38,885 nucleotides of DNA, from contig JAAVHY010000049.1 of NCBI GenBank assembly GCA_014799485.1, positions 1 to 38,885 of the forward strand, in the 5' to 3' direction. The notes beneath the pieces are model-generated. The model was not told the DNA's origin. It did no database searches and was given only the letters and a program-made list of their open reading frames with translations. Every line of letters begins with the position of its first letter. The first letter of the stretch is position 1. This DNA comes from Clostridiales bacterium (GTDB taxonomy: Bacteria > Bacillota_A > Clostridia > Oscillospirales > Oscillospiraceae). Shown here piece after piece: positions 18,857-32,943 of this stretch. Both the position numbers and the translations under genes were made by a program.

Positions 18857-18913
18857 GTCCGCTTCCCCCCTCCTTCCCTCACGCCGCACCGGCACTCCGC
18901 CAGATTGGCGCAA

Positions 18914-18942
18914 GCCCCTCCCGGCCTTTGGTCGGGAGGGGC
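18914..18942 (-). terminator. Strong hairpin after ftsZ
   Basis: GCCCCTCCCGACC pairs with GGCCGGGAGGGGC (one mismatch) five bases downstream of the ftsZ stop. On the minus strand only TTG follows, not a T run, so it may attenuate rather than stop transcription and let the radical SAM gene and gluQ be read at lower level. Confidence 0.5.
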
Positions 18943-18947
18943 GTTTC

Positions 18948-20099
18948 TCACTTTTTATTGAAAATGCGGAAAATGTCGTCGAAGGGATCGGCCTCAGGGG
19001 GCTCAGCGGCGGACTCCGACAGGGGCTTGGGGGGCGTGATGGGGCCCACCCCGGCGGGGACGCACGTGGGCTTGTCCTCCTGGGCGGCCTGGGGCTTGGC
19101 CTGGGCGGGCCGCTCCGCTTCCTTCTCCGGGACGGGGTTGTCCACCTCGCCGAAGCCGGTGGCGATGACGGTGACCCGCAGCTCGTCCTCCAGGGTGTCG
19201 TCAAAGGCGGTGCCCATCATGGACAGGGCGTCCGGGTCGGCCACCTGCTTGACCATCTCGGCGGCCTGCTCCACCTCCTCCAGACCCATGTCCATAGGCC
19301 CGGTGATGTTGACGATGATGCCCTTCGCCCCCTGGATGGAGGTCTCCAGCAGGGGGCTGTTGATGGCAATGCGGGTGGCCTCCTCCGCCTTGTTCTTGCC
19401 CGCGGCCCGGCCCACGCCCATGTGGGCCAGCCCCGCGTCCTTCATCACGGCGGTGACGTCGGCAAAGTCCAGGTTGATCAGGCCGGTGGTCTTGATCAGG
19501 TCGGAAATGGACTGCACCGCCTGACGCAGCACATCATCGGCGATGGCAAAGGCATTGGCAAAGGTGATCTTCTCGTCGGTGGCGTACTGGAGGCGGTCGT
19601 TGGGGATGATGACCAGGGAGTCCACCTTCTGCCGGAGCTCCTCAATGCCCCGGGCGGCCTGATCCATGCGGCGGCGCCCCTCAAAGTTGAAAGGCTTGGT
19701 GACCACGCCCACGGTGAGGATGCCCTTCTCCTTGGCCAGCTCCGCCACCACCGGGGCCGCCCCGGTGCCGGTGCCGCCTCCCATGCCGGCGGTGACGAAC
19801 ACCATATCCGCCCCTTCCAGCAGGGCGCTGATCTGCTCCTTGCTCTCCTTGGCGGACTCCCGGCCCACCTCGGGGTTGGCCCCCGCACCCTTGCCGCCGG
19901 TGAGCTTCTCGCCGATGGCCAGCTTCTGGGTGGCCTCGGAAGCGTTGAGACACTGGCGGTCGGTGTTTACGGCGACAAACTCCACACCCTGCATCCCCGA
20001 GCGAACCATGCGGTTGACCACGTTATTGCCGCCGCCGCCTACGCCAATGACCTTTAATACGTCCTCGTGGCTGGCGGCGGAATCCATTACAAATGCCAT
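18948..20099 (-). CDS. ftsZ: Cell division protein FtsZ
   Basis: FtsZ is the tubulin-like GTPase that forms the Z-ring. The 383-aa protein has [16 protein letters not shown] at the N-terminus, the GTP signature GGGTGTG at 107-113, and the T7 loop [15 protein letters not shown] (about 207-221) for GTP hydrolysis. A short Pro/Ala/Glu linker (about 315-370) is followed by the C-terminal peptide [13 protein letters not shown], which binds partner proteins. AGGAGG lies 8 bases before the ATG at 20097-20099. It is next to ftsQ but has its own strong promoter in the gap. ftsA, its usual upstream partner, is absent, as in many Clostridia of this group. Confidence 0.98.
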
Positions 20100-20166
20100 C
20101 CTGTGACCCTCCTATGTAAAACCAGTGATAGTCCAAACAATAAGACGCCAAACTACATCTTGTTAT

Positions 20167-20195
20167 ATTGTACCCTTTTTTCCCAAAGCGGTCAA
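20167..20195 (-). promoter_or_regulatory. Sigma-A promoter of ftsZ
   Basis: On the minus strand: -35 TTGACC (20195-20190), 17-base spacer, -10 TACAAT (20172-20167), leaving a leader of about 60 bases. It allows FtsZ to be made independently of the upstream dcw cluster. Confidence 0.85.
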
Positions 20196-20231
20196 TAGAA
20201 AATCGCAGTTTTTTGCCGTCCCTCCAAAACT

Positions 20232-21011
20232 TTACGATCTGTCCGGCCGGAAGTAGGCTTTCCCGTCCATCACCGTCAGGTCCAGCACGCCGCCCTGCCC
20301 CTCCTGGATCGTCCCATCCTCCAGGCCCCGGGTCAGGGCGCTCCGGGCCAGGTAGACGCAGTAGTCATAATCCCCGCCCCGGGGCAGCCGCAGGTGGTAG
20401 ATGCCGTATTCCAGCGTCATGGACGTGGCGGCGGTGCAGTCCAGCGCCGTGCACTGCGGCAGGATGCCGTATTCCTCCAGCGCGCCCAGCAGCTGCTTGA
20501 CGTAGTCCAGGGTGAGCGCTTCCTCCTCGGTTGTCTGGATCATCCCCCCGGCGTAGGGTCCCACCGCCGTGAGGCCGTCGACCCGGATCGTCTGGATGGA
20601 GCCGTTGTCCTTTTCCAGCAGCTTGCCCTGGGCGGAGATGAGCCAGCGCCCCTCGGCCGAGTCCACCGACGCCGCCGCCACCCGCTCCGTCACCCGGATG
20701 ACCAGCCCGTCCGGGTAGACCCGCTGGAGGGCCACCCCCTCCACATAGGGCAGCTGGGTGCGGATGGACGCCGACACCCGGCTGCCGGCCAGGGCAATGA
20801 GATTGTCGCCTGTCTTGATGCCAGACGCCTCGATGATCTCCTCGGCGGTATAGCGCACATTGCCCGTCACTTCGATGGTGTTTACCCGGAAAAAGACCAC
20901 ACAGGCCACGATGACCGCCGCGGAGATCAGCAGGACGGACAGCATTTTGTAAAGGCCGCCAAACCGGCCCCGCCGCTTTTTCGGCCTGCTGTGTCTGCGC
21001 TGTCGTGCCAC
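20232..21011 (-). CDS. ftsQ: Divisome protein FtsQ/DivIB
   Basis: This bitopic membrane protein links early and late divisome parts through FtsL and FtsB. The basic cytoplasmic tail (RQRRHSRPKKRR) is followed by one membrane helix (about residues 25-43), then a POTRA domain starting FFRVNTIEVTGNVRYTAEEI, then the FtsQ beta domain (about 115-230). Length is 259 aa from GTG at 21009-21011, chosen because GAGG lies 8 bases upstream. A GTG three codons earlier (21018-21020) lacks a ribosome site. The gap to murA is 28 bases from this start. Confidence 0.92.
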   Translation of the reverse strand: MARQRRHSRPKKRRGRFGGLYKMLSVLLISAAVIVACVVFFRVNTIEVTGNVRYTAEEIIEASGIKTGDNLIALAGSRVSASIRTQLPYVEGVALQRVYPDGLVIRVTERVAAASVDSAEGRWLISAQGKLLEKDNGSIQTIRVDGLTAVGPYAGGMIQTTEEEALTLDYVKQLLGALEEYGILPQCTALDCTAATSMTLEYGIYHLRLPRGGDYDYCVYLARSALTRGLEDGTIQEGQGGVLDLTVMDGKAYFRPDRS

Positions 21012-21039
21012 GGTCGTCACCTCGGTTCTGATCTATCTG

Positions 21040-22296
21040 CTATTCTTCCCTGCGTTCAACATTTGCCCCCAGGGCCCCGAGCATTTCCTCCAGCCCCTCG
21101 TAGCCCCGGTCGATGTGGTTCAGGCCGGACAGGACCGTGGTCCCCTCCGCCCCCAGGGCCGCCGCCGCCAAAGCGCCGCCCCCCCGCAGGTCGGACGCCT
21201 CCACCCGGGCACCGTGGAGCCGTTCCACCCCCCGCACCAGGGCCACCCGGCCCTCGGTGGTGATGTCCGCCCCCATGCGGATGAGCTCGGGCACGTGGCG
21301 GTAGCGGCTGTCGAACATGGTCTCTACGAACAAAGTGCATCCCCGGGACGCCGCCAGCGCCGCCATCACCGGGGCCTGCGCGTCGGTGGGGAAGCCGGGA
21401 TAGGGGGCGGTCCGGATGGTGGGCACACCCTTGAGCGGAACGCCCCCATCCCGCTCCAGCTCCACGTATTCCAGCCTGCTCTCCACCCGGCAGCCCGCCT
21501 GGTGGAACACGGACAGGACCGTGGCCAGGTGCCGCCAGTCCACCCCGCTCAGCCGCACCCTTCCCCCTGCCGCCGCCGTGGCGGACAGCAGGGTGGCCGC
21601 CACGATGCGGTCGCCCATGACAGTGTATTCCCCGCCGGACAGCGGGCGGCCCCCTTCCACAGTAATGGTGGAACTGCCCGCCCCCCGGACATCCGCCCCC
21701 AGGCTGTTGAGGAAGCCCTGGAGATCGCCGATCTCCGGCTCCCGGGCCGCGTTGGAGATGGTGGTGGCGCCTTGCGCCCCCACGGCGCACAAGATCGCGT
21801 TTTCCGTAGCGCCCACACTGGGCAGGGCCAGCTGTATCTCCCCGCCCCGGGGCCGTCCCTGGCAGTGGATGCCCCAGTCCTCCCGCACCTCGCACCCCAG
21901 GGCCCGGATGGCGCTGAGATGCAGGTCGATGGGCCTGGGGCCCAGCTCGCACCCGCCGGGGTAGGTCAGGTGGGCCTCCCCCGCCCGGGCCAGCAGCGGC
22001 CCCAGGAAAATGATGGACGAGCGCATGGAGCGCATCTGTTCCTCCGAGACCGTGTTCCCCGACGCCCCGGTGGGGTCCACCCAGACGGTGTGACCCTCCT
22101 GCTCTGCCCTGCATCCCAGGCGGCGGAGTATGCCCAGCGCGGCGGTCACATCGGTGAGTTTTGGGCAGTTGCGCAGCGTTACCGGCCCCCGTGCCAGCAG
22201 ACAGGCGGCTAAAATGGGCAGCACGCTGTTTTTTGCCCCATGGACGGCCAGCTCGCCCTCCAGCGGCATCCCGCCCCGAAGATACATTACACTCAT
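21040..22296 (-). CDS. murA: UDP-N-acetylglucosamine 1-carboxyvinyltransferase MurA
   Basis: MurA transfers enolpyruvate from PEP to UDP-GlcNAc, the first committed step of wall synthesis and the fosfomycin target. The 418-aa product has K22-N23 (HGAKNSVLP), a mobile loop TYPGGCELGPRPIDLHL with the catalytic C116 (so fosfomycin-sensitive chemistry is expected at this residue), and the conserved TDAQAPVMA and ETMFDSRYRHVPEL blocks. The loop reads GGCELG instead of the usual GGCAIG. ATG 22294-22296 has GGAGG 7 bases upstream. It lies between murG and ftsQ, a Firmicute dcw position. A second murA paralogue may exist elsewhere. Confidence 0.96.
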   Translation of the reverse strand: MSVMYLRGGMPLEGELAVHGAKNSVLPILAACLLARGPVTLRNCPKLTDVTAALGILRRLGCRAEQEGHTVWVDPTGASGNTVSEEQMRSMRSSIIFLGPLLARAGEAHLTYPGGCELGPRPIDLHLSAIRALGCEVREDWGIHCQGRPRGGEIQLALPSVGATENAILCAVGAQGATTISNAAREPEIGDLQGFLNSLGADVRGAGSSTITVEGGRPLSGGEYTVMGDRIVAATLLSATAAAGGRVRLSGVDWRHLATVLSVFHQAGCRVESRLEYVELERDGGVPLKGVPTIRTAPYPGFPTDAQAPVMAALAASRGCTLFVETMFDSRYRHVPELIRMGADITTEGRVALVRGVERLHGARVEASDLRGGGALAAAALGAEGTTVLSGLNHIDRGYEGLEEMLGALGANVERREE

Positions 22297-22356
22297 GGCA
22301 AAGCCTCCCCATAGAAAGAAATCTCGATCCATTCTATGCGGATAGGCTTTCAGCCG

Positions 22357-23469
22357 TTATTTTATGAGCGCAACGAGGTTTTCATAGATATCCTGGGCCG
22401 CATGGGGCGCGGCCAGCTCACGCAGGGCCTTCCCCATGGCCGCCCGGCGGGCGCCGTCGGCCAGCAGGTCCATCGCCGCTTTGTAGAGGTCTTCGCCGGT
22501 GCAGCCCTTCTCCTCCACCAGCTCCACCCCGCCCCGGTCGGCCAGCACCTTGGCGTTTTTGTACTGGTGGTTTGCCGCCACGAAGGGGGAGGGCACCAAA
22601 ATAGCGGGCTTGCCCAGGGCGGTGAGCTCCCCGATGGTGGACGCCCCCGCCCGGCAGATCACCAGGTCGGCCGCCGCCATCACCACCGGCATATCGTCGA
22701 TATAGGGCCGCACCTCTTTTTCATCCACCTTGATGTTCCGCTTGGCCAGCTCAGCGGTCATGCTTTTGTAGTCCCGTCCGGCGGCATGGATGTAGTGGAA
22801 GGGCTTCCCCTCCGCCGCCCAGCGCTCCACCAGGTCTACCGTGTGATCGCTCATATGCCCCGCCCCCTGGGAGCCCCAGAAGGACACCACCAGGGGGTGA
22901 CTGTCCGTCAGTCCCAGCTCCAGCCGGGCCTGCTCCCGGTCCAGGGAGAAGAACTCCCCCCGCACCGGGGTGCCGGTGACGGCCACCTTTTTCGCGTCCT
23001 TATAGTAGGCCGCCGCCTCGGGGAAACCGACCATCACCAGATCCACCTGGTTGGCCAGCGTCCGGGTGGTAAGGCCCGGGTAGGCGTTGGACTCGTGGAG
23101 GGCGCATGGGATATGCCGCCTGGCCGCCTCGTGGACGGCGGGATAGGAGGCGTAGCCCCCCGTGCCCACCACCAGGTCGGGCTTGAACCGCTTGAGGATG
23201 ACCGCCGCCTCGTGCTGCCCCACCGGCAGCTTGAAGACGCTGCCCACATTGTGCTTGATGATTTTCCAGCTCCAGGCGCGTTCGAAGGTGGACACCTTTA
23301 CCGTCTCGATGGGGTAGCCCGCCTGGGAAACCAGCCGCTGCTCCATCCCCCGCTCCGCGCCCACGAACAGGATCTCGCAGCCGGGGTGGCGGCTCTTGAA
23401 CTGCTGGGCCACCGCCAGGGCGGGGTTGACATGGCCCGCCGAGCCGCCGCAGGTAAATATCACTTTCAT
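22357..23469 (-). CDS. murG: UDP-GlcNAc:undecaprenyl-PP-MurNAc-pentapeptide GlcNAc transferase MurG
   Basis: This GT-B glycosyltransferase converts lipid I to lipid II on the inner membrane face. The 370-aa protein has the first glycine-rich loop CGGSAGHVNPALA (7-19; usually GGTGGH), the second GTGGYASYPAVHEA, the third SFWGSQGAG, and the UDP-GlcNAc binding segment CRAGASTIGELTALGKPAILVPSP. ATG 23467-23469 is preceded by GAGG at 5 bases. The 118-base gap from ftsW holds a double hairpin that ends just before this ribosome site. Confidence 0.97.
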   Translation of the reverse strand: MKVIFTCGGSAGHVNPALAVAQQFKSRHPGCEILFVGAERGMEQRLVSQAGYPIETVKVSTFERAWSWKIIKHNVGSVFKLPVGQHEAAVILKRFKPDLVVGTGGYASYPAVHEAARRHIPCALHESNAYPGLTTRTLANQVDLVMVGFPEAAAYYKDAKKVAVTGTPVRGEFFSLDREQARLELGLTDSHPLVVSFWGSQGAGHMSDHTVDLVERWAAEGKPFHYIHAAGRDYKSMTAELAKRNIKVDEKEVRPYIDDMPVVMAAADLVICRAGASTIGELTALGKPAILVPSPFVAANHQYKNAKVLADRGGVELVEEKGCTGEDLYKAAMDLLADGARRAAMGKALRELAAPHAAQDIYENLVALIK

Positions 23470-23496
23470 GTCGTCCTCACAAACTCCATTCCTCTC

Positions 23497-23570
23497 GCTT
23501 CCGCCCTTCGGCGAAAGCTCGCTCATTTCGTTGCTCGTCCTCTCCCCACGAAAGCTGAACGGCGCTTTCG
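23497..23570 (-). other. Double hairpin in the ftsW-murG gap
   Basis: Two stems lie between ftsW and murG: CGAAAGC (23549-23555) with GCTTTCG (23564-23570), and GCTTCCGCC (23497-23505) with GGCGAAAGC (23510-23518; one wobble pair). No T tract follows. GAGCG-type words resemble those in the elements at 24845 and 34807, but the order is different, so I do not call it a third copy. Confidence 0.5.
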
Positions 23571-23587
23571 CGGGGGCCCCTTACCTC

Positions 23588-24814
23588 CTATTCCGCCTTG
23601 GGGGCGGCGATTTGCCGGGACACACTTAATACCATGCCCATCTCCGCCAATTGGATGGCCAGGGCCGTGCCGCCGTAGCTGAAAAAGGGCAGCGAGATGC
23701 CCGTGGGGGGCAGGAAGCCCGTCACCACGCCGATGTTGAAGAAGGCCTGGAATGCCGTCAGCGACGTGATGCCCACCACCAGCAGGGTGCCGAAGCGGTC
23801 CCGGGCGTGGAGGGCCAGCCAGTAGCCCCGGATGATGAGCAGGGCGAACAGGGCGATGATGACGCAGGCCCCCACCATACCCAGCTCCTCGCAGAGAATG
23901 GGGAAAATATAGTCGTTGTGCTCCTCCGGCAGGAAGGCGTTTTTCTGCCGGCTGTTGCCCAGCCCCACCCCCAGCAGGCCGCCGGAGCCGATGGCGATCC
24001 TGGCCTGAATGGGCTGGAAGCCGTCCCCCAAGGGGTCGCTGAAGGGGTCATGCCAGATGGTGAGCCGCTTGGTCATATATTCCGTGTGGTTGGCGACCCA
24101 GTAGAGCGCCCCCCCCAGCACCGCCCCGCCGCCCAGGAACCAGTACAGCGAGACGCCGGACGCGAACAGCACCGACGCCGCCCCCAGCGCCACCAGGATC
24201 GTACCGGACAAGTGCTTCTGCAGCAGGATAATGCCCAGCACCACCCCCAGCACCAGCACATAGGGAATCAGCTCCAGCAGGCCGATGCGGTCCAGCCGCG
24301 CCGCCATCCGGCCCGTGAACGTGCGCTTGCTCCACTTTTTGGGCGGGCCCAGCTGGGTATTGCGTTTGGACAGCCGGGCGGCAAAAAACAGGATAACGCC
24401 CACCTTGGCGATCTCCGAGGGCTGGAAGCGGAGGCCGAATATGTTCAGCCACCGCCGCGCGCCGCCGCCGCTGCGCCCCAGGGGAGTGAACACCAGCAGC
24501 ATCAGCACCACCGAGCCCGCCAGCACAAAAATGGACATCCAGCGGAAGTGCTGGTAGTCGATCTTGGAGATGATGAACATGGCCACGACGCCCAGCACGG
24601 CGAAGCTGAACTGCCGCTTGAAATAATACAGGGGATCCCCCCCGGTGTTCACGCCCCGGTCCATGTCCAGCATAGCGGAGACGTAGGAAGCGGACAGTAC
24701 CATGATAAGGCCGATGGCGGTGAGCAGCATCACCAAAGCCAGAAAAGGCAGGTCGATGGGCCCCCGGGCCAGCTGCTGCTCAATGGTCAGGTCACGTTTG
24801 GCCTTTTTCCGCAC
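23588..24814 (-). CDS. ftsW: SEDS glycosyltransferase FtsW
   Basis: The 408-aa polytopic membrane protein (about 10 helices) belongs to the SEDS family, which polymerises lipid II with a cognate class B PBP. Signatures are RRWLNIFGLRFQPSEIAKVG (about 130-150), the extracellular loop GDGFQPIQARIAIGSGGLLGVGLGNS with the catalytic-region QARIAIGSG, LPEEHNDYIFPILCEELG, and the C-terminal LPPTGISLPFFSYGGTA. The start is GTG at 24812-24814, with GGAGG 7 bases upstream. SpoVE is a close paralogue and cannot be excluded by sequence. Location beside murG and the PBP supports FtsW. Confidence 0.95.
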   Translation of the reverse strand: MRKKAKRDLTIEQQLARGPIDLPFLALVMLLTAIGLIMVLSASYVSAMLDMDRGVNTGGDPLYYFKRQFSFAVLGVVAMFIISKIDYQHFRWMSIFVLAGSVVLMLLVFTPLGRSGGGARRWLNIFGLRFQPSEIAKVGVILFFAARLSKRNTQLGPPKKWSKRTFTGRMAARLDRIGLLELIPYVLVLGVVLGIILLQKHLSGTILVALGAASVLFASGVSLYWFLGGGAVLGGALYWVANHTEYMTKRLTIWHDPFSDPLGDGFQPIQARIAIGSGGLLGVGLGNSRQKNAFLPEEHNDYIFPILCEELGMVGACVIIALFALLIIRGYWLALHARDRFGTLLVVGITSLTAFQAFFNIGVVTGFLPPTGISLPFFSYGGTALAIQLAEMGMVLSVSRQIAAPKAE

Positions 24815-24844
24815 GGTGTTCCCTCCTTTGTCCTTGGGCTATTG

Positions 24845-24975
24845 TTGTCACGCTGCGAAGCGGCCAGGACGCTCGGTCGCTTTCCTTCCGACTCGGGCTG
24901 GTCTCTGGGGCCGATGGCCCCATCGCTCACCCTCGCTCCAGTCCAAGCTCCCTCGCTGACCGCTTCTCCACGCTC
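24845..24975 (-). repeat. Structured intergenic element, copy A (mraY-ftsW gap)
   Basis: This 131-base segment shares four separated blocks with 34807-34933: TGTCACGCT, TTCC(T/C)TCCGACTCGG(G/A)CTGGTCTC, CCTCGCTCC(A/G)GTCCA and ACGCTC (plus-strand reading). Stems: GAAGCGG (24857-24863) with CCGCTTC (24960-24966); GGGCTGG (24895-24901) with CCAGTCC (24938-24944); apical GGGGCC-GAT-GGCCCC (24907-24921). Its edge overlaps the mraY stop codon, and it ends about 20 bases before the ftsW ribosome site. Confidence 0.65.
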
Positions 24976-25963
24976 AGATCGCGTACCGATACATCACGCC
25001 CACAAACGCCAGCAGACAGAACGCCACCGTGATGCCGGTGAAGGTGAGCACGATGCGCACCTCGCTCCACCCGCCCAGCTCCAGATGGTGGTGGAGGGGG
25101 GCCATGCGGAAGATACGCTTGCCGTGGGTGAGCTTGAAGTAGCCCACCTGGATGATGTCACTCATGGTCTCGGCAATATAGATGATCCCCACCGGCACCA
25201 GCACCAGCGGCGTGTCCAGGGCAAAGGCCATGCCGCACACCGCGCCCCCCAGGAACAGGGAGCCGGTGTCCCCCATGAACACCTTGGCCGGGTGGAAATT
25301 ATATACCAGGAAGCCCAGCAGGCCGCCGGCCAGCGCGCCGGCGAAAATGCCCACCGCGCCGAATTCCCACCACTGGGACAGCGCCGCGAAGAACACCGAC
25401 ACCGCCAGGGTCACCGACCCGGCCAGGCCGTCCACCCCGTCGGTGAGGTTGACCGCGTTGACGCACCCCACCATGACAAAGGCGGCAAACACCAGGTATA
25501 CCCCCCAGGACAGGGGGATAGTGACGTTGACAAAGGGGATATACAGGTTGGGGGTGAGATGGTGGCTGCTCCGCAGCAGGGCCAGGAACGCGATGGCCGC
25601 CGCCAGCTGGAGCAGGAACTTCCATCCGGCGGTGAGGCCGGTGTTCTCGTGCTTGCGGATCTTGGCGGAATCATCCACAAAGCCGATGGCCCCGCAAACC
25701 AGGGCAAAGCCCAGCACGAACACCGCCTGCCAGCTTCCCTCCGCCATGTCCCGCCAGCCAAAGGCAATGACCACCGCGATCACCGCCAGGATGAACATGA
25801 TGCCCCCCATGGTGGGCGTGCCCTCTTTGATCTTATGCCAATTGGGGCCGATCTCCTTGATGGACTGGCCCGCGTGCAGGGCCCGCAGAACGGGGATCAA
25901 AAACCATCCCACCACCACCGAGATCACAAACGCGGTCAGCGCCGCCAACAGTATCCGTACCAT
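24974..25963 (-). CDS. mraY: Phospho-N-acetylmuramoyl-pentapeptide transferase MraY
   Basis: MraY moves phospho-MurNAc-pentapeptide to undecaprenyl phosphate, making lipid I. The 329-aa, 10-helix membrane enzyme has GTPTMGGIMFI, the Mg/catalytic aspartates in GFVDDSAKI, NAVNLTDGVDGLAGS, FMGDTGSLFLGG, and the histidine-rich loop MAPLHHHLELGGWSE. GGAGGAG lies 5 bases before the ATG at 25961-25963. It follows the small Mur-like gene by 43 bases, and its TGA stop is embedded in the edge of the structured element before ftsW. Confidence 0.97.
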   Translation of the reverse strand: MVRILLAALTAFVISVVVGWFLIPVLRALHAGQSIKEIGPNWHKIKEGTPTMGGIMFILAVIAVVIAFGWRDMAEGSWQAVFVLGFALVCGAIGFVDDSAKIRKHENTGLTAGWKFLLQLAAAIAFLALLRSSHHLTPNLYIPFVNVTIPLSWGVYLVFAAFVMVGCVNAVNLTDGVDGLAGSVTLAVSVFFAALSQWWEFGAVGIFAGALAGGLLGFLVYNFHPAKVFMGDTGSLFLGGAVCGMAFALDTPLVLVPVGIIYIAETMSDIIQVGYFKLTHGKRIFRMAPLHHHLELGGWSEVRIVLTFTGITVAFCLLAFVGVMYRYAI

Positions 25964-26006
25964 AGCTTCTCCTCCACACTCTCTTTCGTATTCCCTTGCT
26001 TCTCTC

Positions 26007-26537
26007 TCAAACACCCAGCCGGGCCGCCGCGTCATCCAGCGGCACCCCCAGGGCCAGCGCCCCCGCCAGGGCCGCCAGGTGGTCATACAGCCGGGGGCTC
26101 CCCCCCGCGGGCACCCGCACCCGGGTCAGCTCGCCCCGGGTCGTAAAAGCTTCGAATTCCAGCCGCTCCCCCCGGAGGCGGACGTTCTTGGCGGTGAGAT
26201 CCGCCTGGGGCCTGCCGTCGGAGTAGGCGTACACCGCCCCCGGCATAGCGCCGGCCAGGCGGCGGCCCTCCGGGTCGTCCAGCCCCACCACGGTGATCCC
26301 GGCCCGGCGGGACAACGCCCACCGCGCCGCGGCACAGCCGCTCAGCCCCCCCTGGGCGGGGGGCTCAAAGTTCTCCACCACCACCGCGCGGCAGCGGCCC
26401 TCGTACATCGCCGCCTGGCAGGGCGTCAGCTCCACCACCGGCCCGGGCAGCAGGACGCGCAGCAGCCCGGCGGTGAGTGTGCCCCCCCGGCCTACCACGG
26501 CCACAGGGTCCTTTATCGTACTCCTACTGGTCCCCAT
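26007..26537 (-). CDS. Small degenerate Mur-ligase-like protein
   Basis: The 176-aa protein sits where murE/murF normally lie. It looks like a stripped Mur ligase central domain. VAVVGRGGTLTAGLL (12-26) parallels the ATP loop but lacks the catalytic Lys (Mur enzymes: GT-N/D-GKT/S-T). A second part, ITVVGLDDPEGRRLAG (81-96), parallels the MurE NxDDPxG region, and RLYDHLAALAGALALGVPLDDA (149-170) parallels the end of the central domain. The N-terminal UDP domain and C-terminal amino-acid domain are missing, so ligase activity is very unlikely. The ATG at 26535-26537 overlaps the PBP gene by 14 bases with a weak AGGA site; a downstream GTG (26507-26505 region) is possible. The assignment is by motif pattern only. 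It is either a decayed remnant or a repurposed binding protein. Confidence 0.7.
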   Translation of the reverse strand: MGTSRSTIKDPVAVVGRGGTLTAGLLRVLLPGPVVELTPCQAAMYEGRCRAVVVENFEPPAQGGLSGCAAARWALSRRAGITVVGLDDPEGRRLAGAMPGAVYAYSDGRPQADLTAKNVRLRGERLEFEAFTTRGELTRVRVPAGGSPRLYDHLAALAGALALGVPLDDAAARLGV

Positions 26538-28929
26538 ATTCGATCCTGCTCTCAAACCTTACCTCCACCACTGTACCGGGGGACACCATGGTCCCGGCGC
26601 TCACCGACTGGGCGGAAGCGGCGCAGGTCCCATCGCTGGCCTCCACCGCGCCGGCGGCCCGCATGAACAGGCCCCGCTCCTCCAGCTTGACCTTGGCCGC
26701 CGTGGGGGTGAGCCCCTTCAGGTCGGGCGTCTCCACCTGCGCCTCCGGGGCCTCGCTGCCCAGATAGAGCACCACCTGGGAGCCGCCGGGGATGGATACG
26801 CCCGCCGCGGGCACCTGGTGGGTGACGGTGCTCCCCGCGCCCACGGTGCGGCAGTCGAAGCCCGAAGCCTGCAGCGTGCTCTGGGCCACGGACAGCTCCT
26901 GGCCCACCACATAGGGCATGGGGGCGTCCGCGCGCGCCAGCTCATCCGCGGAATACTGCTTCTCCACCCCGATGTAATCCAGGATCTTGGCGATGAGCTG
27001 CCCCGCCATAGGGGCGGCGATGTTGCCGCCGGAAATATACGTGCCGGACGCCGTGTAGTTGGAGCCGGGGGCGGAACGCTTGGGGCTGTCATAGGCCACC
27101 AGCACCAGCACCTGGGGGTTATCCACCGGGGCGAAGCCCATGAAGGAGCAGATCACGTCGTCGTTATCCAGCTCGTCCCGCTTCTCCGATGTGCCTGTTT
27201 TGCCGCCGATGCGGTAGCCGCTCCGATAGGCGTTGTGCCCGCCGCCGTTGGCGACGACGCTCTCCAGGATGGCCCGAAGCTTGTCGGAGGTGGACTCGCT
27301 GATGACCTGGCGCACCTCCTGGGTCTCGTGGTAAAACACGGCGTTGTCCTCCCCATCGCTGATGGACTGCACCACATAGGGCTCCAGCAGATGCCCGCCG
27401 TTGATCACCGAGGCGAAGGCGGTAATCATCTGGATGGGAGTGATCTTGAAGGTCTGCCCGAAGGAGGCAACCGCCAGGGAGATGGCGCCATAGGGCCCGG
27501 TAAAGGTGTCCTTGCTCCAGAACAGGCTCTTTTCCTCCCCGCCCAGGTCAATACCGGTCTTGTCAAACAGGCCGTAATCCTCAAAGTACTGCCACATGGT
27601 CTCCGCGCCGATCTTGCTGCCGATCTCCATCAGCGCCACGTTGCAGGAGTTCTCCACCGCCTGGGTGAGGGTCTGGTCCTTATGCCCGTTGCGGTTGTGG
27701 CAGCGGATGGGGCTTTCCAGGCCGGGGAAATTTTTGGAACCGCCGCAGTAGTAGTGGTCATCCAGGGAGATCAGACCCTCCTCCAGAGCCATGGCCACCA
27801 CCAGCGGCTTGAACACCGAACCGGGCTCGTAGGTATCGGACAGGGCGCGGTTCTTCATCTGCTTGTTCCACGCGGCCATCCAGGCGTCGTTGACCTCCTG
27901 GCTGTCCTCCCCCTTTTCTTCCGCCACCTGGTCGATCTCGGCCTGGAGGGTGTCGCTGAGGATGCTGTTCCAGTTGTTCGGGTCGAAATCCGGGGTGCTG
28001 GACATGGCCAGTATCGCCGCGGTGTTGGGGTCCATGACAATGCCGAACGCGCCGTTCTGCACGTCGTAGCTCTCGATCCCTTCGGCCAAAGTCTGTTCCA
28101 GCATGGCCTGCATCCGCTCGTCCAGGGTGAGGTGGACATTGTAGCCGTTCTGAGCGTCGAAGTACATCTCATAGCCGGAGATCATGTCCATGCTGTGGCC
28201 GTTGATGGAGGTGACCGCCCGGCCCAGTTCGCCGGACAGGGCGTCCTCATACCCCGCCTCAACGCCGGACTTCCCTACCTTGTTGTCGCCGCTGGTCTCG
28301 GTCTGGCCCATATAGCCCAGGATGTGGGAGCCAATGGAGGAGAAGGGATAGTACCGCTTGCTGCTGGGGGTGAGCTGCAGCCCGGCGGACAGCTTATTCT
28401 CGCTGATGAAGGTCCGGGCCCTTTCCGCGTCCTCCTCCTCCAGCTCGGAATACAGCACCTCATAGCCGGAGCTGGTGCGCTCGATGCGGGTCCACAGCCT
28501 TTCCTCGTCGTAGCCGAACAGGTCCACGATGCCGTCCACGATGGTTTTGCGCAGGTCGTACAGCGCCTTCTCATAGGCCGCCTCGTCCAGATTCCCGTCC
28601 TCGTCCTTATACTTTTCCTTGTTGATCGAACCCTGCACGCCCTTGGGGGAGAGCACCAGCTTATAGACCGTGGCGGACATGGCCATCGTGCGGCCCTCCC
28701 GGTCATAGATGGTGCCCCGGTTTGCGGCAACGGAAACGCTCTTGGTCTGCTGGTCGGCGGCCAGCTCCTCCCATTTTTCGTGCTCCACGATCTGGAGCTG
28801 GTAGAGCTGGACCACCAGGGGCACGAACGCGAGCACCCCCAGCAGCACCATCAGGAAAATGGTGCGGCGGAACAGGCTTCGGTTATTTTTACCCTCCGTG
28901 CGGCGGGGCTTTCGATTCGGGTCTTCCAT
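26524..28929 (-). CDS. Class B penicillin-binding protein with two PASTA domains (PBP2B/SpoVD type)
   Basis: This septal transpeptidase cross-links peptidoglycan together with FtsW. The 801-aa protein has a short basic cytoplasmic tail, one membrane helix (about 23-43), a pedestal dimerisation domain with RGTIYDREGR (71-80), and a transpeptidase domain with all three active motifs: SxxK at S371-K374 (PGSVFK), SCN at 428-430 and KTGT at 577-580. Two PASTA domains follow (about 671-735 and 740-801), which bind wall fragments or muropeptides. AGGAG lies 8 bases before the ATG. dcw location argues for the division enzyme; a sporulation paralogue (SpoVD) is the alternative. Its end overlaps the start of the small Mur-like gene. 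Confidence 0.95.
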   Translation of the reverse strand: MEDPNRKPRRTEGKNNRSLFRRTIFLMVLLGVLAFVPLVVQLYQLQIVEHEKWEELAADQQTKSVSVAANRGTIYDREGRTMAMSATVYKLVLSPKGVQGSINKEKYKDEDGNLDEAAYEKALYDLRKTIVDGIVDLFGYDEERLWTRIERTSSGYEVLYSELEEEDAERARTFISENKLSAGLQLTPSSKRYYPFSSIGSHILGYMGQTETSGDNKVGKSGVEAGYEDALSGELGRAVTSINGHSMDMISGYEMYFDAQNGYNVHLTLDERMQAMLEQTLAEGIESYDVQNGAFGIVMDPNTAAILAMSSTPDFDPNNWNSILSDTLQAEIDQVAEEKGEDSQEVNDAWMAAWNKQMKNRALSDTYEPGSVFKPLVVAMALEEGLISLDDHYYCGGSKNFPGLESPIRCHNRNGHKDQTLTQAVENSCNVALMEIGSKIGAETMWQYFEDYGLFDKTGIDLGGEEKSLFWSKDTFTGPYGAISLAVASFGQTFKITPIQMITAFASVINGGHLLEPYVVQSISDGEDNAVFYHETQEVRQVISESTSDKLRAILESVVANGGGHNAYRSGYRIGGKTGTSEKRDELDNDDVICSFMGFAPVDNPQVLVLVAYDSPKRSAPGSNYTASGTYISGGNIAAPMAGQLIAKILDYIGVEKQYSADELARADAPMPYVVGQELSVAQSTLQASGFDCRTVGAGSTVTHQVPAAGVSIPGGSQVVLYLGSEAPEAQVETPDLKGLTPTAAKVKLEERGLFMRAAGAVEASDGTCAASAQSVSAGTMVSPGTVVEVRFESRIEYGDQ

Positions 28930-28974
28930 GGGCTTCGCTCCTGCCTTCCAAAAATGTCGCGGATTCGTTATGGC

Positions 28975-29014
28975 AGAGGGGCGCGGGAACCCTGTGCGTT
29001 CCTCACGCCCCTCT
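28975..29014 (-). other. Long hairpin between ftsL-like gene and PBP gene
   Basis: AGAGGGGCG (minus strand) pairs with CGCCCCTCT; inside, GGAAC pairs with GTTCC. The stem is followed by GCCATAACG with no T tract, and the PBP ribosome site is about 35 bases further. It looks like an intercistronic mRNA stability or processing stem, not a terminator. Confidence 0.5.
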
Positions 29015-29053
29015 GATCTCTCTATGGGAAATGTATGTGCCGGGGCAGGTCCC

Positions 29054-29626
29054 TTATGACATCAGGCCGGCAAAAAACCGCTCCGCCCGCTGGAGGATGC
29101 CGGACAGCCCCTCCCCCGCGCCGTCATAGTATACCACGCTATCCCCGCCGGACAGGTCCAGGTACACCGTCTGTCCCGCCCCGGGGCGCACCATGGTGCC
29201 GTCGGAAAGGAACTGCTTCTCGATGGCCTCCAGGTCGTACACCAGCTCGTATTTGGCCTGGAGCGTGCGGTTTTCATCCTGAAGGTCGGCCAGGGTGGAA
29301 CGCATTTTCACGATGTCGTGGTTGGTCTTGGCCAGCTGGGCACAGCTGATCACCAGCATCAGCGCGCAGGCCAGCACCGCGAACAGGCCCACCACGGTGA
29401 AGGGGGCCACGGCGCCCTGGGGCCGGACCTCGATGCTGGGCCGGACCGCCGGACGCCGGCGGGGCCGGGGCACGGGGCGGCGGTGGGGCTCCGGGCGGCG
29501 GACGGTATTACCCTGCACCCGCTCCCGCCGGGCCGGGGCGCGGGCAGGCTCCTGCTCGAACTCCGGCTGGTAGGCAACGCTGCCGTAAGTGCGGTATCTT
29601 CTGTGATTCCTGCTCTCAGTCGCCAT
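29054..29626 (-). CDS. FtsL-like divisome protein
   Basis: The 190-aa protein lies between rsmH and the PBP gene, the standard ftsL position. It has a long Arg/Pro-rich cytoplasmic tail (about 1-72, pI very basic), one membrane helix (about 75-97, VVGLFAVLACALMLVISCAQLA), then a coiled coil (about 97-135) with LADLQDENRTLQAKYELVYDLEAIEKQFL typical of FtsL/DivIC. The C-terminal 50 residues are additional. FtsL proteins are short and divergent, so identity rests on architecture and position. AGGAGAG lies about 6 bases before the ATG at 29624-29626. The cytoplasmic tail is unusually long. Confidence 0.8.
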   Translation of the reverse strand: MATESRNHRRYRTYGSVAYQPEFEQEPARAPARRERVQGNTVRRPEPHRRPVPRPRRRPAVRPSIEVRPQGAVAPFTVVGLFAVLACALMLVISCAQLAKTNHDIVKMRSTLADLQDENRTLQAKYELVYDLEAIEKQFLSDGTMVRPGAGQTVYLDLSGGDSVVYYDGAGEGLSGILQRAERFFAGLMS

Positions 29627-29684
29627 GGGGCACTCTCCTCACATCTTCATCCATTCCCCACAATGCGATCCGCAGGGTCACGGT

Positions 29685-30617
29685 TTACAGCTTCTCCGCC
29701 AGGCGCAGCTTGGCGCTGCGGGCCCTCGGGTTATCCTTCACTTCGCCCTCGTCCGCCGTGATGGGCCGCTTGCCCACCAGCTTGACCTTGGGCGTTTTTC
29801 CGCACACGCACACCGGGAAGTCCGGCGGGCAGGTGCAGCCCTTGGCCCACTGGGCATAGGCGGTCTTGACCAGCCTGTCCTCCAGGGAGTGGAAGGAGAT
29901 GACCGCCAGCCTCCCGCCCGGGTTCAGCGCGTCCAGCGCGCCCGCCAGCAGCCGCTCCACCTCTCCCAGCTCATCGTTCACGGCGATGCGGATGGCCTGG
30001 AAGGAGCGTTTGGCGGGGTGCTGCTTCTCCCGCTTGGCCTTGGCGGGCATGGCGCCCCGGATGATCTCCGCCAGCCGGCCGGTGGTCTCGATGGGGGCCT
30101 GTTCCCGTTCCCGGACGATAGCGGCGGCGATGGGGCCGGAATAGCGTTCCTCGCCGTATTGCCACAGGATGCGCCTGAGCTCTTCCTGGCCCCAGCCGTT
30201 CACCACGTCCCTCGCGGTGAGGGGGGCGGACTGGTCCATGCGCATGTCCAGCGGCGCGTCCTGGAGGTAGGAGAAGCCCCGGCTTCCATCGTCCAGCTGG
30301 GGGGAAGACACCCCCAGGTCGAACAGCATCCCGTCCACCCCGCTGACCCGGAGGGAGGCCAGGATATCCGTCAGATTACCAAAGTTTCCCCGAACCAGGG
30401 TCACCTTATCCATATGGCCTTCCAACCGGGCGGGGGCGGCGTCCAGGGCCGCCTTATCCCGGTCAATGGCAATCAGCCGCCCCGTGGTGAGCCGTTTGAC
30501 GATCTCCAGCGAGTGGCCCGCCCGGCCCAGGGTGCCGTCTACATAGACGCCGTCTGGCCGGATGTTCAGGCCGTCCAGGCACTCGTTCAAAAGCACCGGC
30601 TTGTGGGTGTATTCCAT
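29685..30617 (-). CDS. rsmH: 16S rRNA (cytosine1402-N4)-methyltransferase RsmH
   Basis: RsmH (MraW) uses SAM to methylate C1402 in the ribosomal P-site. The 310-aa protein has HKPVLLNECLDGL, the SAM loop VDGTLGRAGHS (26-36), FDLGVSSPQLDDGSRGFSY, and the C-terminal KRSFQAIRIAVNDEL and VISFHSLEDRLVK blocks. The ATG at 30615-30617 follows the mraZ stop by 6 bases and has only a weak GGGGA site, so translation is probably coupled to mraZ. Second gene of the dcw cluster. Confidence 0.97.
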   Translation of the reverse strand: MEYTHKPVLLNECLDGLNIRPDGVYVDGTLGRAGHSLEIVKRLTTGRLIAIDRDKAALDAAPARLEGHMDKVTLVRGNFGNLTDILASLRVSGVDGMLFDLGVSSPQLDDGSRGFSYLQDAPLDMRMDQSAPLTARDVVNGWGQEELRRILWQYGEERYSGPIAAAIVREREQAPIETTGRLAEIIRGAMPAKAKREKQHPAKRSFQAIRIAVNDELGEVERLLAGALDALNPGGRLAVISFHSLEDRLVKTAYAQWAKGCTCPPDFPVCVCGKTPKVKLVGKRPITADEGEVKDNPRARSAKLRLAEKL

Positions 30618-30623
30618 ATCGCG

Positions 30624-31040
30624 TCAAATCCCCAGGTTCTTCATCAGGTTGGCGATGGTCTCCGGGTTGAGCTGCTGCCGGGTCTTGGCCTTCCAGTTGT
30701 CCGCGCTCCAGATCTGGGCCCGGTCGTTGTTGCCGGTGACCACCACGTCCCGGTCGATCTTCGCGTAGTCCTTTAAATAGGACGGCACCTGGAAGCGCCA
30801 CTGCTTGTCCGCCTCGCACAGCTGGGCGCTGGCAAAAAACAGATCCATGGCCGCCGCGTCGGTGGTGGACAGCTCGGACACCTTCGCCCGCAGCCTGTCC
30901 CACGTCTCCATCGGGTAAAGGGTGAGGTTCTCCTTCACGCCCACCGCCAGGTAAAAGGAGGAGCCCAGCTTGTCCCGCAGTTTGGAGGGCACGATCAGAC
31001 GGCCGGCGTTGTCGATGCTGTGCTCGTAAGTACCGGTCAT
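30624..31040 (-). CDS. mraZ: Transcriptional regulator MraZ
   Basis: MraZ is an AbrB-like DNA-binding ring protein that represses its own dcw operon in studied species. The 138-aa protein contains two SpoVT/AbrB-like repeats: the first with YEHSIDNAGRLIVPSKLRDKL (5-25), the second around QVPSYLKDYAKIDRDVVVTG. GGAGG lies 7 bases before the ATG at 31038-31040. It heads the cluster, directly behind a strong promoter with possible operator repeats. Confidence 0.96.
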   Translation of the reverse strand: MTGTYEHSIDNAGRLIVPSKLRDKLGSSFYLAVGVKENLTLYPMETWDRLRAKVSELSTTDAAAMDLFFASAQLCEADKQWRFQVPSYLKDYAKIDRDVVVTGNNDRAQIWSADNWKAKTRQQLNPETIANLMKNLGI

Positions 31041-31079
31041 CTCTTTTCCTCCATTCTCCTCCGTATATAAGCAGAATTA

Positions 31080-31124
31080 CTCCATTTCACTCCACTACGC
31101 TTCTCAGTATACTCTCCCGTCCCA
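31080..31124 (-). promoter_or_regulatory. Possible MraZ operator repeats
   Basis: On the minus strand, TGGAG occurs at 31094-31090 and again at 31084-31080, exactly 10 bases apart. TGGGA at 31124-31120 is in the same 10-base register inside the promoter spacer. MraZ operators elsewhere are direct repeats of TGGG/TGGN-type boxes with 10-base period at the mraZ promoter. Only two of the boxes are clear, so this is tentative. Confidence 0.45.
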
Positions 31125-31134
31125 CAAATTGCAA
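31106..31134 (-). promoter_or_regulatory. Sigma-A promoter of the dcw cluster
   Basis: On the minus strand: -35 TTGCAA (31134-31129), 17-base spacer, -10 TATACT (31111-31106). Predicted start near 31099, giving a leader of about 60 bases to mraZ. The rest of the gap up to 31270 is AT-richer and holds nothing else I can name. Confidence 0.85.
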
Positions 31135-31270
31135 GCACTTTTTTCCTCGCAATTTCCCTTTTTTCATGGCAAAATGCGCCATTTGTTCGCACAAACATCC
31201 GTTTTAACCCTTCGCCGCACATTTTGTGGGCCGCCCCTCCCCCGCCGGTTCCACATATAGTGGTGGGCGC

Positions 31271-31306
31271 AAAAAAGCCCCGCCGCGGTCTCCCGCGGCG
31301 GGGCTT
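31271..31306 (-). terminator. Terminator after the coiled-coil gene
   Basis: On the minus strand, AAGCCCCGCCGCGG pairs perfectly with CCGCGGCGGGGCTT around GAGA, followed by TTTTTT (31276-31271). It closes the uvrC-rsmD-coaD-coiled-coil unit ahead of the mraZ promoter. Confidence 0.93.
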
Positions 31307-31334
31307 CAAAATTATGATTTGTTCTCTTTTTCCT

Positions 31335-31859
31335 CTACTCGTCCGCCTCAGCGTCGTACATCCGGCTGGCCCCGGACTTGCCCGCGGCGGAGCTGCCGCT
31401 CCCCCCCATGCCGGTGCGGAACTGGTTGTGTACCTGGCGCATCTCCGCGTGGGCGGCGGCCAGGGCATCCTCCGTGCGGCGCAGCAGATCCACGCAGTAC
31501 TCGTTGGCCTCCCGGCAGGTCTTTTTGGCCTCCTCGTCGGCATGGGCCAGCACCTCCCGGGCCTTCTGCCGGGCCTGGTTCATCACAGGGGCCTCGCTCA
31601 CCATCTGGTTGGCCTCGATCTCCGCCCGTTTGCGGATCTCCTCCGCCTCCCGCTTGGCGGCGGCCAGGTACTCGTTCCGGGCGTTGAGGATCTTCCGGGC
31701 CTCGGCCAGATCCACGGGGAGCTGCTTCTTGGCGTCCTCGATGAGATCCAGGGCCTTGTCCCGCTCGATCACACACTTGTCCCCGCTGAAGGCGGCGTTT
31801 TTCGCCTCGTCGATCATATCAAACAGCATATCCAGCAGTTCGTCCACAGCAGTCGCCAT
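31335..31859 (-). CDS. Coiled-coil protein of unknown function, coaD-linked
   Basis: The 174-aa protein is mostly charged helix (residues about 5-140; heptad-rich, KREAEEIRKRAEIEANQMV) with a Gly/Ser-rich end (GMGGSGSSAAGKSG). No membrane helix or signal is visible. Similar proteins in Clostridia are often labelled as ATP-synthase-subunit-like or DivIVA-like because of the helix composition; I do not see true catalytic or DivIVA N-terminal features. AAAGGAGAG lies about 7 bases before the ATG at 31857-31859. It follows coaD by 35 bases and ends just before a terminator. Cytoplasmic scaffold is the most that can be inferred. Confidence 0.75.
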   Translation of the reverse strand: MATAVDELLDMLFDMIDEAKNAAFSGDKCVIERDKALDLIEDAKKQLPVDLAEARKILNARNEYLAAAKREAEEIRKRAEIEANQMVSEAPVMNQARQKAREVLAHADEEAKKTCREANEYCVDLLRRTEDALAAAHAEMRQVHNQFRTGMGGSGSSAAGKSGASRMYDAEADE

Positions 31860-31894
31860 GCGTTATCTCTCCTTTTGATGTAAAATCTGCTTTC

Positions 31895-32395
31895 TCACAG
31901 GTAGTCCTGTCCGCTTTCCGCCACCTTGGCCCTCACCCGCTCGATGATCTGCCGGGGTACAAAGTCGGACAGGTCCGCCCCATACCGGGCCAGCTCCTTC
32001 ACCACGGTGGAGCTGAGGTAGGCATATTTGGGCCGGGTATACAGGAACACGGTATCCAGCTTGGGATAAAGCTTGGCGTTGAGCATGGCCATTTGGATCT
32101 CCGACTCGTAGTCGGACACCGCCCGCAGGCCCTTTACCAGCACCCGGGCGCGGTGGCGCTTGGCATACGCCGCCACCAGCTCCTGGGAACAGTCCACCTT
32201 CACGTTGGGCAGGTCATCCGTCACCCGGCGGATCAGCTCCACCCGTTCCTCCGGGGAGAACAGCCCTGCCGGCTTGGCGGAGTTGACGCTGACGCAGACA
32301 ATCAGCTCATCAAAGATGGCGGAGGCCCGCTTGATGATATCCAGGTGGCCCAGGGTCACCGGGTCAAAGCTGCCGGGGTAGATGGCGCGTCTCAT
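31895..32395 (-). CDS. coaD: Pantetheine-phosphate adenylyltransferase CoaD
   Basis: CoaD transfers AMP from ATP to 4'-phosphopantetheine, the penultimate step of coenzyme A synthesis. The 166-aa protein has the nucleotidyltransferase motif GSFDPVTLGH (8-17), KGLRAVSDYESE, and the C-terminal YLSSTVVKE. The ATG at 32393-32395 overlaps the rsmD stop by 4 bases, with AGGAGG 8 bases upstream inside rsmD. The rsmD-coaD pair is widely conserved. Confidence 0.97.
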   Translation of the reverse strand: MRRAIYPGSFDPVTLGHLDIIKRASAIFDELIVCVSVNSAKPAGLFSPEERVELIRRVTDDLPNVKVDCSQELVAAYAKRHRARVLVKGLRAVSDYESEIQMAMLNAKLYPKLDTVFLYTRPKYAYLSSTVVKELARYGADLSDFVPRQIIERVRAKVAESGQDYL

Positions 32396-32943
32396 GGGTT
32401 CGCCCTCCTGCGGTACAGGGTAAATTTGATCTTGCCGTAGCGGTATTCCCTGCCCTTTTCATAGGGGACGGGGAGCTCCGGCAGCGTGTGGTCCGCCGGA
32501 CTTTCGCAAACCATTATACCATTTTCCATCACGATGTCAATCGCCGTGAGCAGATCCAGGGCCCGCTCCAGATTCCCCGAGGCGTAGGGCGGGTCCAGGA
32601 AAACAAGGCCGTACTTTTCCCTCCGCCCGCTGAGGAAGGCGGCAAAGTCCTTCCCGTGGCAGGCGGCGCGGTCCTCAAAGCCGCAGGTCTTGACGTTCCG
32701 CCGCACCACCTTCAGCGCGGCGGGGGCGCTGTCCACAAAGTCGCAGAAGGCCGCCCCCCGGGACAGGGCCTCGATGCCCAGCTGCCCGGTGCCCGCGAAC
32801 AGGTCCAGCACCCGCCGCCCCTCGATGTCGAACTGGATGGCACTGAACAGTCCCTCCTTTACCCGGTCGGTGGTGGGGCGGGTAGCCAGGCCGGGCAGTT
32901 CTTCCAAACGCCTGCCCTTTGCCGAACCTGTGATCACTCTCAT
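32392..32943 (-). CDS. rsmD: 16S rRNA (guanine966-N2)-methyltransferase RsmD
   Basis: The 183-aa SAM-dependent methyltransferase has the N-terminal MRVITGSAKGRRLEEL with RPTTDRVKEGLFS (22-34), SAM motif LDLFAGTGQLG (46-56) and catalytic DPPY (117-120). It modifies G966 of 16S rRNA near the decoding site. The ATG at 32941-32943 overlaps the uvrC stop by 4 bases, and its own stop overlaps coaD by 4 bases, so the three genes are tightly coupled. Confidence 0.96.
   Translation of the reverse strand: MRVITGSAKGRRLEELPGLATRPTTDRVKEGLFSAIQFDIEGRRVLDLFAGTGQLGIEALSRGAAFCDFVDSAPAALKVVRRNVKTCGFEDRAACHGKDFAAFLSGRREKYGLVFLDPPYASGNLERALDLLTAIDIVMENGIMVCESPADHTLPELPVPYEKGREYRYGKIKFTLYRRRANP

Follow-up and report, generated by a model that had tools for sequence, protein, structure and literature searches.

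A MurE remnant without an active site at the murE slot of a cell-wall gene cluster

We analyzed a stretch of 38,885 nucleotides from a Clostridiales bacterium of the Oscillospiraceae (contig JAAVHY010000049.1 of assembly GCA_014799485.1; hereafter the window), in which the division and cell-wall (dcw) cluster carries, between a penicillin-binding protein (PBP) gene, pbp, and mraY, a gene for a protein of 176 amino acids. In related genomes this slot holds the ligase MurE. The small protein, here called the mini, descends from slot MurE, has lost its catalytic residues, is predicted to keep the fold, and is under selection; in other lineages the slot protein has been reduced repeatedly and the same part kept. 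We give an even chance to the reading that catalysis has moved to a second MurE (E2) and that the slot gene survives as a non-catalytic pseudoenzyme adaptor for the cytoplasmic wall-synthesis assembly.

The mini is a Mur central domain alone, without the N-terminal domain that binds UDP-N-acetylmuramic acid (UDP-MurNAc) and without the C-terminal domain with its DNPR and KGHE motifs. EVSSH, DHLD, and the carbamylated Lys are the Mg and substrate motifs of MurE. Aligned with intact slot MurE, the mini lacks the P-loop Lys, the EVSSH His, DHLD, YAH, DNPR, and KGHE; a Glu at or near the EVSSH Glu may remain, in an N-terminal half whose alignment is unsure owing to deletions there. The P-loop GTxGKT with its catalytic Lys reads GRGGTLTA, and G16, T20, T22, and A23 of this old loop (pattern GxxxTxTA) are invariant across the aligned minis despite the missing Lys. 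The block YSDGRPQADLTAKNV corresponds to YSExKxxADLTAKNL in intact slot MurE and in most other relics. Scores fall below the cut-offs of Pfam (PF08245, 16.5 of 24 bits) and NCBIfam (NF001126 for MurE, 15.6 of 373 bits; TIGR01143 for MurF, 19.2 of 288.6 bits). AlphaFold predicts a compact Mur central domain, so that the protein has the pseudoenzyme combination of lost catalytic residues and a kept, predicted fold. A sequence-only reading of the window had named the Lys-less GRGGTLTA, DDPEG, and Mur-like end, the missing UDP- and amino-acid-binding domains, the 176-residue frame, its 14-base overlap with the PBP gene, and its place before mraY, and the alignments and coordinates agree with all of these; it had also proposed a structure prediction with a fold search, which returned the Mur central domain and, as the top Foldseek match, a MurF.

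That reading had left murE and murF open as the ancestor, and synteny and profile comparison settle the matter as murE. Gene order around the slot is the same in the related genomes read, where the slot gene is MurE, and in all 24 shorter loci pbp and mraY flank the MurE gene. In hhalign, the minis match 12 full-length MurE proteins (seven slot proteins and five whose slot was not read) with an E-value of 1.5e-23 and 42% identity over 113 columns (mini 64-176, MurE 203-315), compared with 2.2e-3 against E2 and 1.6e-4, at 23% identity, against MurF; the mini profile is shallow (effective number of sequences, Neff, 1.55). Because of this synteny and profile comparison, the mini gene is, judged by slot and by sequence, the orthologue of the dcw slot murE: it has the location and the homology to the MurE central domain, and its closest relation is not to the MurF of the same genomes. 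Some searches slightly favor MurF, namely the single-sequence profile scans (19.2 vs. 15.6 bits), the Foldseek match, and a PDB profile search by sequence with four weak matches, all MurF (best E-value 0.011), but we reject a MurF origin on the synteny and the hhalign controls.

The mini belongs to a real protein family of gut bacteria. A protein search gave 373 homologues at E ≤ 1e-3, and a second query, the mini of genome G211, gave 368. The best 120 of the 373 are all of 155-183 amino acids and without a Pfam domain, and the three names given are "hypothetical protein." At least 18 mini loci lie in named genome contigs, all from metagenome-assembled genomes (source names Oscillospiraceae, Clostridiales, Bacillota, uncultured bacterium, and Candidatus Enterenecus), and these loci led to a sample of 42 genomes of one genus. 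A complete, stop-free mini frame is present in 39 of the 42. In G336 the contig ends inside the mini gene, and the assembly of G324 has no match to the window's PBP; among congeners with a fully visible slot, the mini is thus kept in 39 of 40.

Mini proteins are under purifying selection of about the strength seen in their fast-evolving neighbors. Over nine close pairs of loci, the pooled ratio of nonsynonymous to synonymous differences (pN/pS) is 0.293. Neighboring genes (seven to nine pairs each) give 0.276 for ftsL, 0.326 for pbp, 0.354 for ftsQ, and 0.223 for ftsW, followed by murA (0.202), murG (0.193), rsmH (0.157), and ftsZ (0.066). Third positions account for 313 of the 521 differences among minis (60%). 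None of the 24 rows, which represent 23 distinct loci (L015 and L127 are the same contig; L127 enters no pair), has a shortened frame. In 19 of them an ATG of the mini frame falls within the end of pbp, and translational coupling is therefore plausible. The orthologue collection and selection estimate that the sequence-only reading had called for thus yielded constraint and near-complete retention, and a protein retained under purifying selection without an active site suggests a non-enzymatic job.

The genomes that carry minis have other candidates for the ligase reaction. Nine mini genomes have five to nine PF08245 matches apiece, and E2 is present in all 42 genomes of the mini genus (in one by a partial match) and in all six mini genomes found among a ranked list of 300. 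All 20 E2 copies read carry GTKGKT as their P-loop, with E(V/A)SSQ, DH(I/L), DYAH, DNPR, and KGHE intact. E2 directly follows dapF in 12 of 20 loci (Pfam identifies a diaminopimelate [DAP] epimerase in both loci checked) and overlaps it in four genomes, those of L110-L113 (L110 3806-6101, L113 3684-5985). This position fits a meso-DAP ligase, and the arrangement would fit a link between making meso-DAP and adding it. In a tree of 33 full-length proteins, slot MurE (E1) forms one clade (support 100) and a third paralogue, E3, another (100). E2 is the remainder rather than one clade: eight E2 rows join E1 (94), and E2 may therefore have more than one origin.

E3 is a third MurE-type ligase without DNPR, reading about DSGEED by eye at that point (L103 2006-5517; also L104, L105, and L108). 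It adjoins an Asp/Glu racemase gene (in L103 confirmed as PF01177), and the residue it serves may be an unusual one of the stem or bridge. In L103, E3 is also accompanied, just upstream of E2, by a RelA/SpoT gene and by a gene for a 405-residue protein that matches no Pfam family. We considered E3 (L038 type) as the replacement enzyme and rejected it; it occurs also in genomes whose slot MurE is intact (e.g., G086, 73% identity).

Reduction of the slot gene extends well beyond the mini genus. From the ranked list of 300 genomes we hand-picked 20 E2 carriers, whose best match lies outside the slot. Further carriers may be present lower down the list or in the 133 genomes that gave no match. Their slots hold one intact gene, two full-length but motif-dead genes (G035 and G100), seven truncated relics, and nine relics of about 175 amino acids; one slot is empty. 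The intact slot murE, in G058, is followed by murF (L123 8356-11164), with a second intact MurE after dapF elsewhere, and is possibly the two-copy state before decay. In the truncated relics (G055, G287, G143, G203, G064, G022, and G124) the N-terminal domain is gone and the C-terminal domain degraded or gone. The shortest class comprises G222, G096, and G167 together with the six mini genomes G008, G256, G294, G075, G211, and G154. Short slot frames of G059 (L125) and G115 (L101) were dropped as contig ends, and that of G027 (L126) is also partial. In the genomes whose best E2 match is the slot gene itself, with slot identity and pbp/mraY flanks checked by place, all six tested motifs are present in 22 of 22 slot genes.

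A tree of seven dcw proteins (33 rows, quick IQ-TREE, long branches) places the minis, including that of the window, in one clade (100), with the full-length dead G100 as its sister (100). Separate from them are the G222 trio (100) and a group of G064, G249, G022, G124, G143, G203, G055, and G287 (100). If lost domains are not regained, the tree requires at least two losses of the N-terminal domain and at least three of the C-terminal domain. In E2-carrying lineages, with one exception seen, slot MurE has been stripped of its catalytic residues and mostly of its N-terminal UDP-binding and C-terminal domains as well, more than once.

What the relics keep is unevenly distributed. As a reference we took 218 columns conserved at ≥90% in 23 intact slot MurE proteins (G058 included; three duplicates and the dead G035 dropped beforehand). 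In nine relic rows, not all independent (G022/G124 and G055/G143 are neighbors in the dcw tree), the conserved cells kept amount to 288/405 (71%) in the C-terminal half of the central domain, 131/531 in its N-terminal half (alignment unsure where relics carry deletions), 30/90 in the P-loop, 47/225 in the N-terminal domain, and 205/711 in the C-terminal domain. Counting present cells only, the values are 72% for the C-half, 34% for the P-loop, 34% for the N-half, 51% for the C-terminal domain, and 81% for the N-terminal domain, the last mostly from two full-length relics. The P-loop Lys is kept in three of the nine rows, and the EVSSH His, DHLD Asp, YAH His, DNPR Asn, and KGHE His are each kept in none. 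Identity of the relic C-half to an intact MurE (G278) is 40%-65%, compared with 46% for the intact outgroup G058 and 63%-68% for three nearer intact proteins. Ratios of nonsynonymous to synonymous rates (dN/dS, omega) are 0.185 for the relic pair G055/G287, 0.28 for G143/G203, and 0.44 for G022/G124.

How might such a protein have arisen? On the leading account, the C-terminal half of the central domain would have given the old slot MurE a further role apart from catalysis, most likely that of docking to a neighbor in lipid-precursor assembly: MurG, MraY, the tails of PBP or FtsW, or another Mur ligase. As catalysis passed to E2, the slot protein would have kept the docking role alone, a division of labor, and the mini would now be a non-catalytic adaptor made co-translationally between PBP and MraY. 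The docking role and its partner are what we infer here. More tentatively, at somewhat short of even odds, the C-half of the slot MurE central domain may be a docking function separable from catalysis, a module towards which several lineages independently pared the old enzyme after the second MurE took over. The sequence-only reading had offered a decayed murE or a repurposed non-catalytic protein; the origin in slot murE and the missing ligase motifs bear this out, and purifying selection and retention in the genus favor the repurposed branch. Its arguments from the clean frame and tight packing are weak. It had also taken a full-length homologue with an intact GKT loop as a sign of recent decay, which does not simply apply: G100, the nearest relative outside the mini clade, is full length and has the GKT loop, but its other motifs are dead.

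Several observations weigh against an adaptor. The minis (0.29) are less constrained than murG (0.19) or mraY, for which omega is ≤0.17 in the seven mini pairs tested. In five of six relic pairs the relic has the highest dN among the compared genes, and the G222/G096/G167 trio, with omega of 0.45, 0.82, and 1.1, is near neutral in two of three pairs and may be eroding. PBP is directly followed by mraY both in G249 (L124), the empty slot of the series, and in G310 (L129), a clean loss within the mini genus; with two clean losses, the slot gene is not strictly essential and is dispensable in some lineages. For the window's own organism, the presence of E2 is deduced from its congeners.

The clean losses and the weak constraint in one lineage allow for the main rival, passive erosion, which we regard as unlikely. 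Here the slot gene decays stepwise after the E2 takeover, its frame kept for a time only since translation carries ribosomes from pbp to mraY, and the protein is inert. The graded series from intact to empty, the two empty slots, the near-neutral pairs of the G222 trio, and the plausible coupling through the ATG within pbp all agree with it. Coupling alone, however, needs no conserved amino acids, and the minis show a pN/pS and a third-position excess that speak for constraint on the protein, a full-length frame in 23 distinct loci and in all but one of the visible congeners, and a nearly invariant block Y105-V119. The relic C-half, too, is about as near to the intact G278 MurE as the intact G058 is, though three intact proteins are nearer. 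The mini might instead be a pseudo-subunit of E2 or MurF, one that binds and stabilizes or tunes the active ligase or senses a nucleotide or muropeptide through the altered P-loop. We think this improbable: E2 accompanies the mini throughout the genus and in the six mini genomes of the ranked list, and four P-loop residues are invariant though the Lys is gone, but relics of other lineages do not keep GxxxTxTA, and G249 and G310 have E2 but no relic. That the mini is a murF remnant, or a minimal ligase that is active or was acquired independently, as the slight MurF preference of the profile scans and structure matches might suggest, is scarcely credible against the absence of the P-loop Lys and the EVSSH His, DHLD, YAH, DNPR, and KGHE motifs and against the profile comparison and synteny that point to slot MurE.

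The cluster in the window runs, all co-directional, from mraZ through rsmH, ftsL, pbp, the mini gene, mraY, ftsW, murG, murA, and ftsQ to ftsZ (Table 1). The mini gene has its first 14 bases within the end of the PBP gene, and 43 bases separate its stop from the mraY start. By eye, no murC, murD, murE, or murF was recognized in the mraZ-ftsZ run of the window, the murD, murE, and murF queries having been aimed at related loci only; at Rfam gathering thresholds, positions 24800-27000 contain no RNA element. Very long antisense open frames occur on the + strand of positions 18000-34000, such as 23651-26146 (831 amino acids) and 26293-29016 (907), most likely because the coding sequence of the minus strand is rich in G+C. 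On the minus strand, a 412-residue frame from a TTG (17966-19204) overlaps the end of ftsZ and ends in a radical-SAM-like protein (CxxxCxxC by eye, spore photolyase-like).

Table 1. Positions in the window of the mini gene, its sequence features, and the surrounding genes
Feature	Coordinates	Strand	Remarks
Mini pseudo-MurE	26007..26537	-	176 amino acids, ATG start
Dead P-loop remnant GRGGTLTA	26469..26492	-	residues 16-23; catalytic Lys replaced
DDPEG	26265..26279	-	residues 87-91; counterpart of NLDDEAG in intact slot MurE
YSDGRPQADLTAKNV	26181..26225	-	residues 105-119; nearly invariant block
Retained C-terminal half of Mur central domain	26010..26306	-	residues 78-176
Upstream PBP gene	26524..28929	-	FtsI/SpoVD position; PASTA-like C-terminus by eye; 14-base overlap with mini gene
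mraY	24974..25963	-	downstream of mini gene
ftsW	23588..24814	-	
murG	22357..23526	-	
murA	21040..22332	-	
ftsQ-like gene	20232..21020	-	
ftsZ	18948..20099	-	
ftsL-like gene	29054..29626	-	
rsmH	29685..30617	-	
mraZ	30624..31040	-	

In the study of wall synthesis it is an open question whether Mur ligases also have structural roles, apart from their chemistry. A selected remnant in the same slot that has lost its active site, and at which separate lineages have arrived, would offer a direct way into it; if the reading as an adaptor is true, nature has here dissected out a scaffold role of a Mur ligase. The 176-residue protein and its block Y105-V119 would permit partner tests free of confounding enzyme activity. 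For annotation, a murE assigned at the dcw slot in this bacterial family can be dead, with the working enzyme elsewhere, often beside dapF.

Among known systems, the mini most resembles MurE itself (UDP-MurNAc-L-Ala-D-Glu:meso-DAP ligase; TIGR01085/NF001126), with which it shares the dcw slot and the predicted fold, mini residues 64-176 being 42% identical to the C-half of the MurE central domain, but it differs in having neither the UDP-binding nor the C-terminal amino-acid-binding domain, in missing the P-loop Lys and the EVSSH, DHLD, YAH, DNPR, and KGHE motifs, and in scoring below the family cut-offs. MurT is an ATP-binding ligase partnered with GatD. Unlike MurT/GatD, the lipid II isoglutaminyl synthase, the mini has no ATP site, and no gatD was recognized by eye beside it. 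MurE relics or mini MurE proteins were not found among the titles and abstract beginnings of the matches listed, which cover part of the literature, and the portions of PMC6420597 and PMC9456514 available to us describe no stand-alone central-domain Mur fragment. In the MurE-MurF complex and the model of MurG as a scaffold, as far as these portions go, the ligases are active and no non-catalytic Mur fragment is described. The same portions supply precedents for a MurE-like protein outside catalysis (PAP11) and for Mur assemblies (MurG with MurE-MurF) (PMC6420597, PMC9456514). PAP11, the MurE-like protein of the plastid-encoded RNA polymerase (PDB 8r6s_Q, 9epc_Q), is of full Mur-ligase size, plastidial, and outside a wall-synthesis cluster, whereas the mini is a stand-alone central domain.
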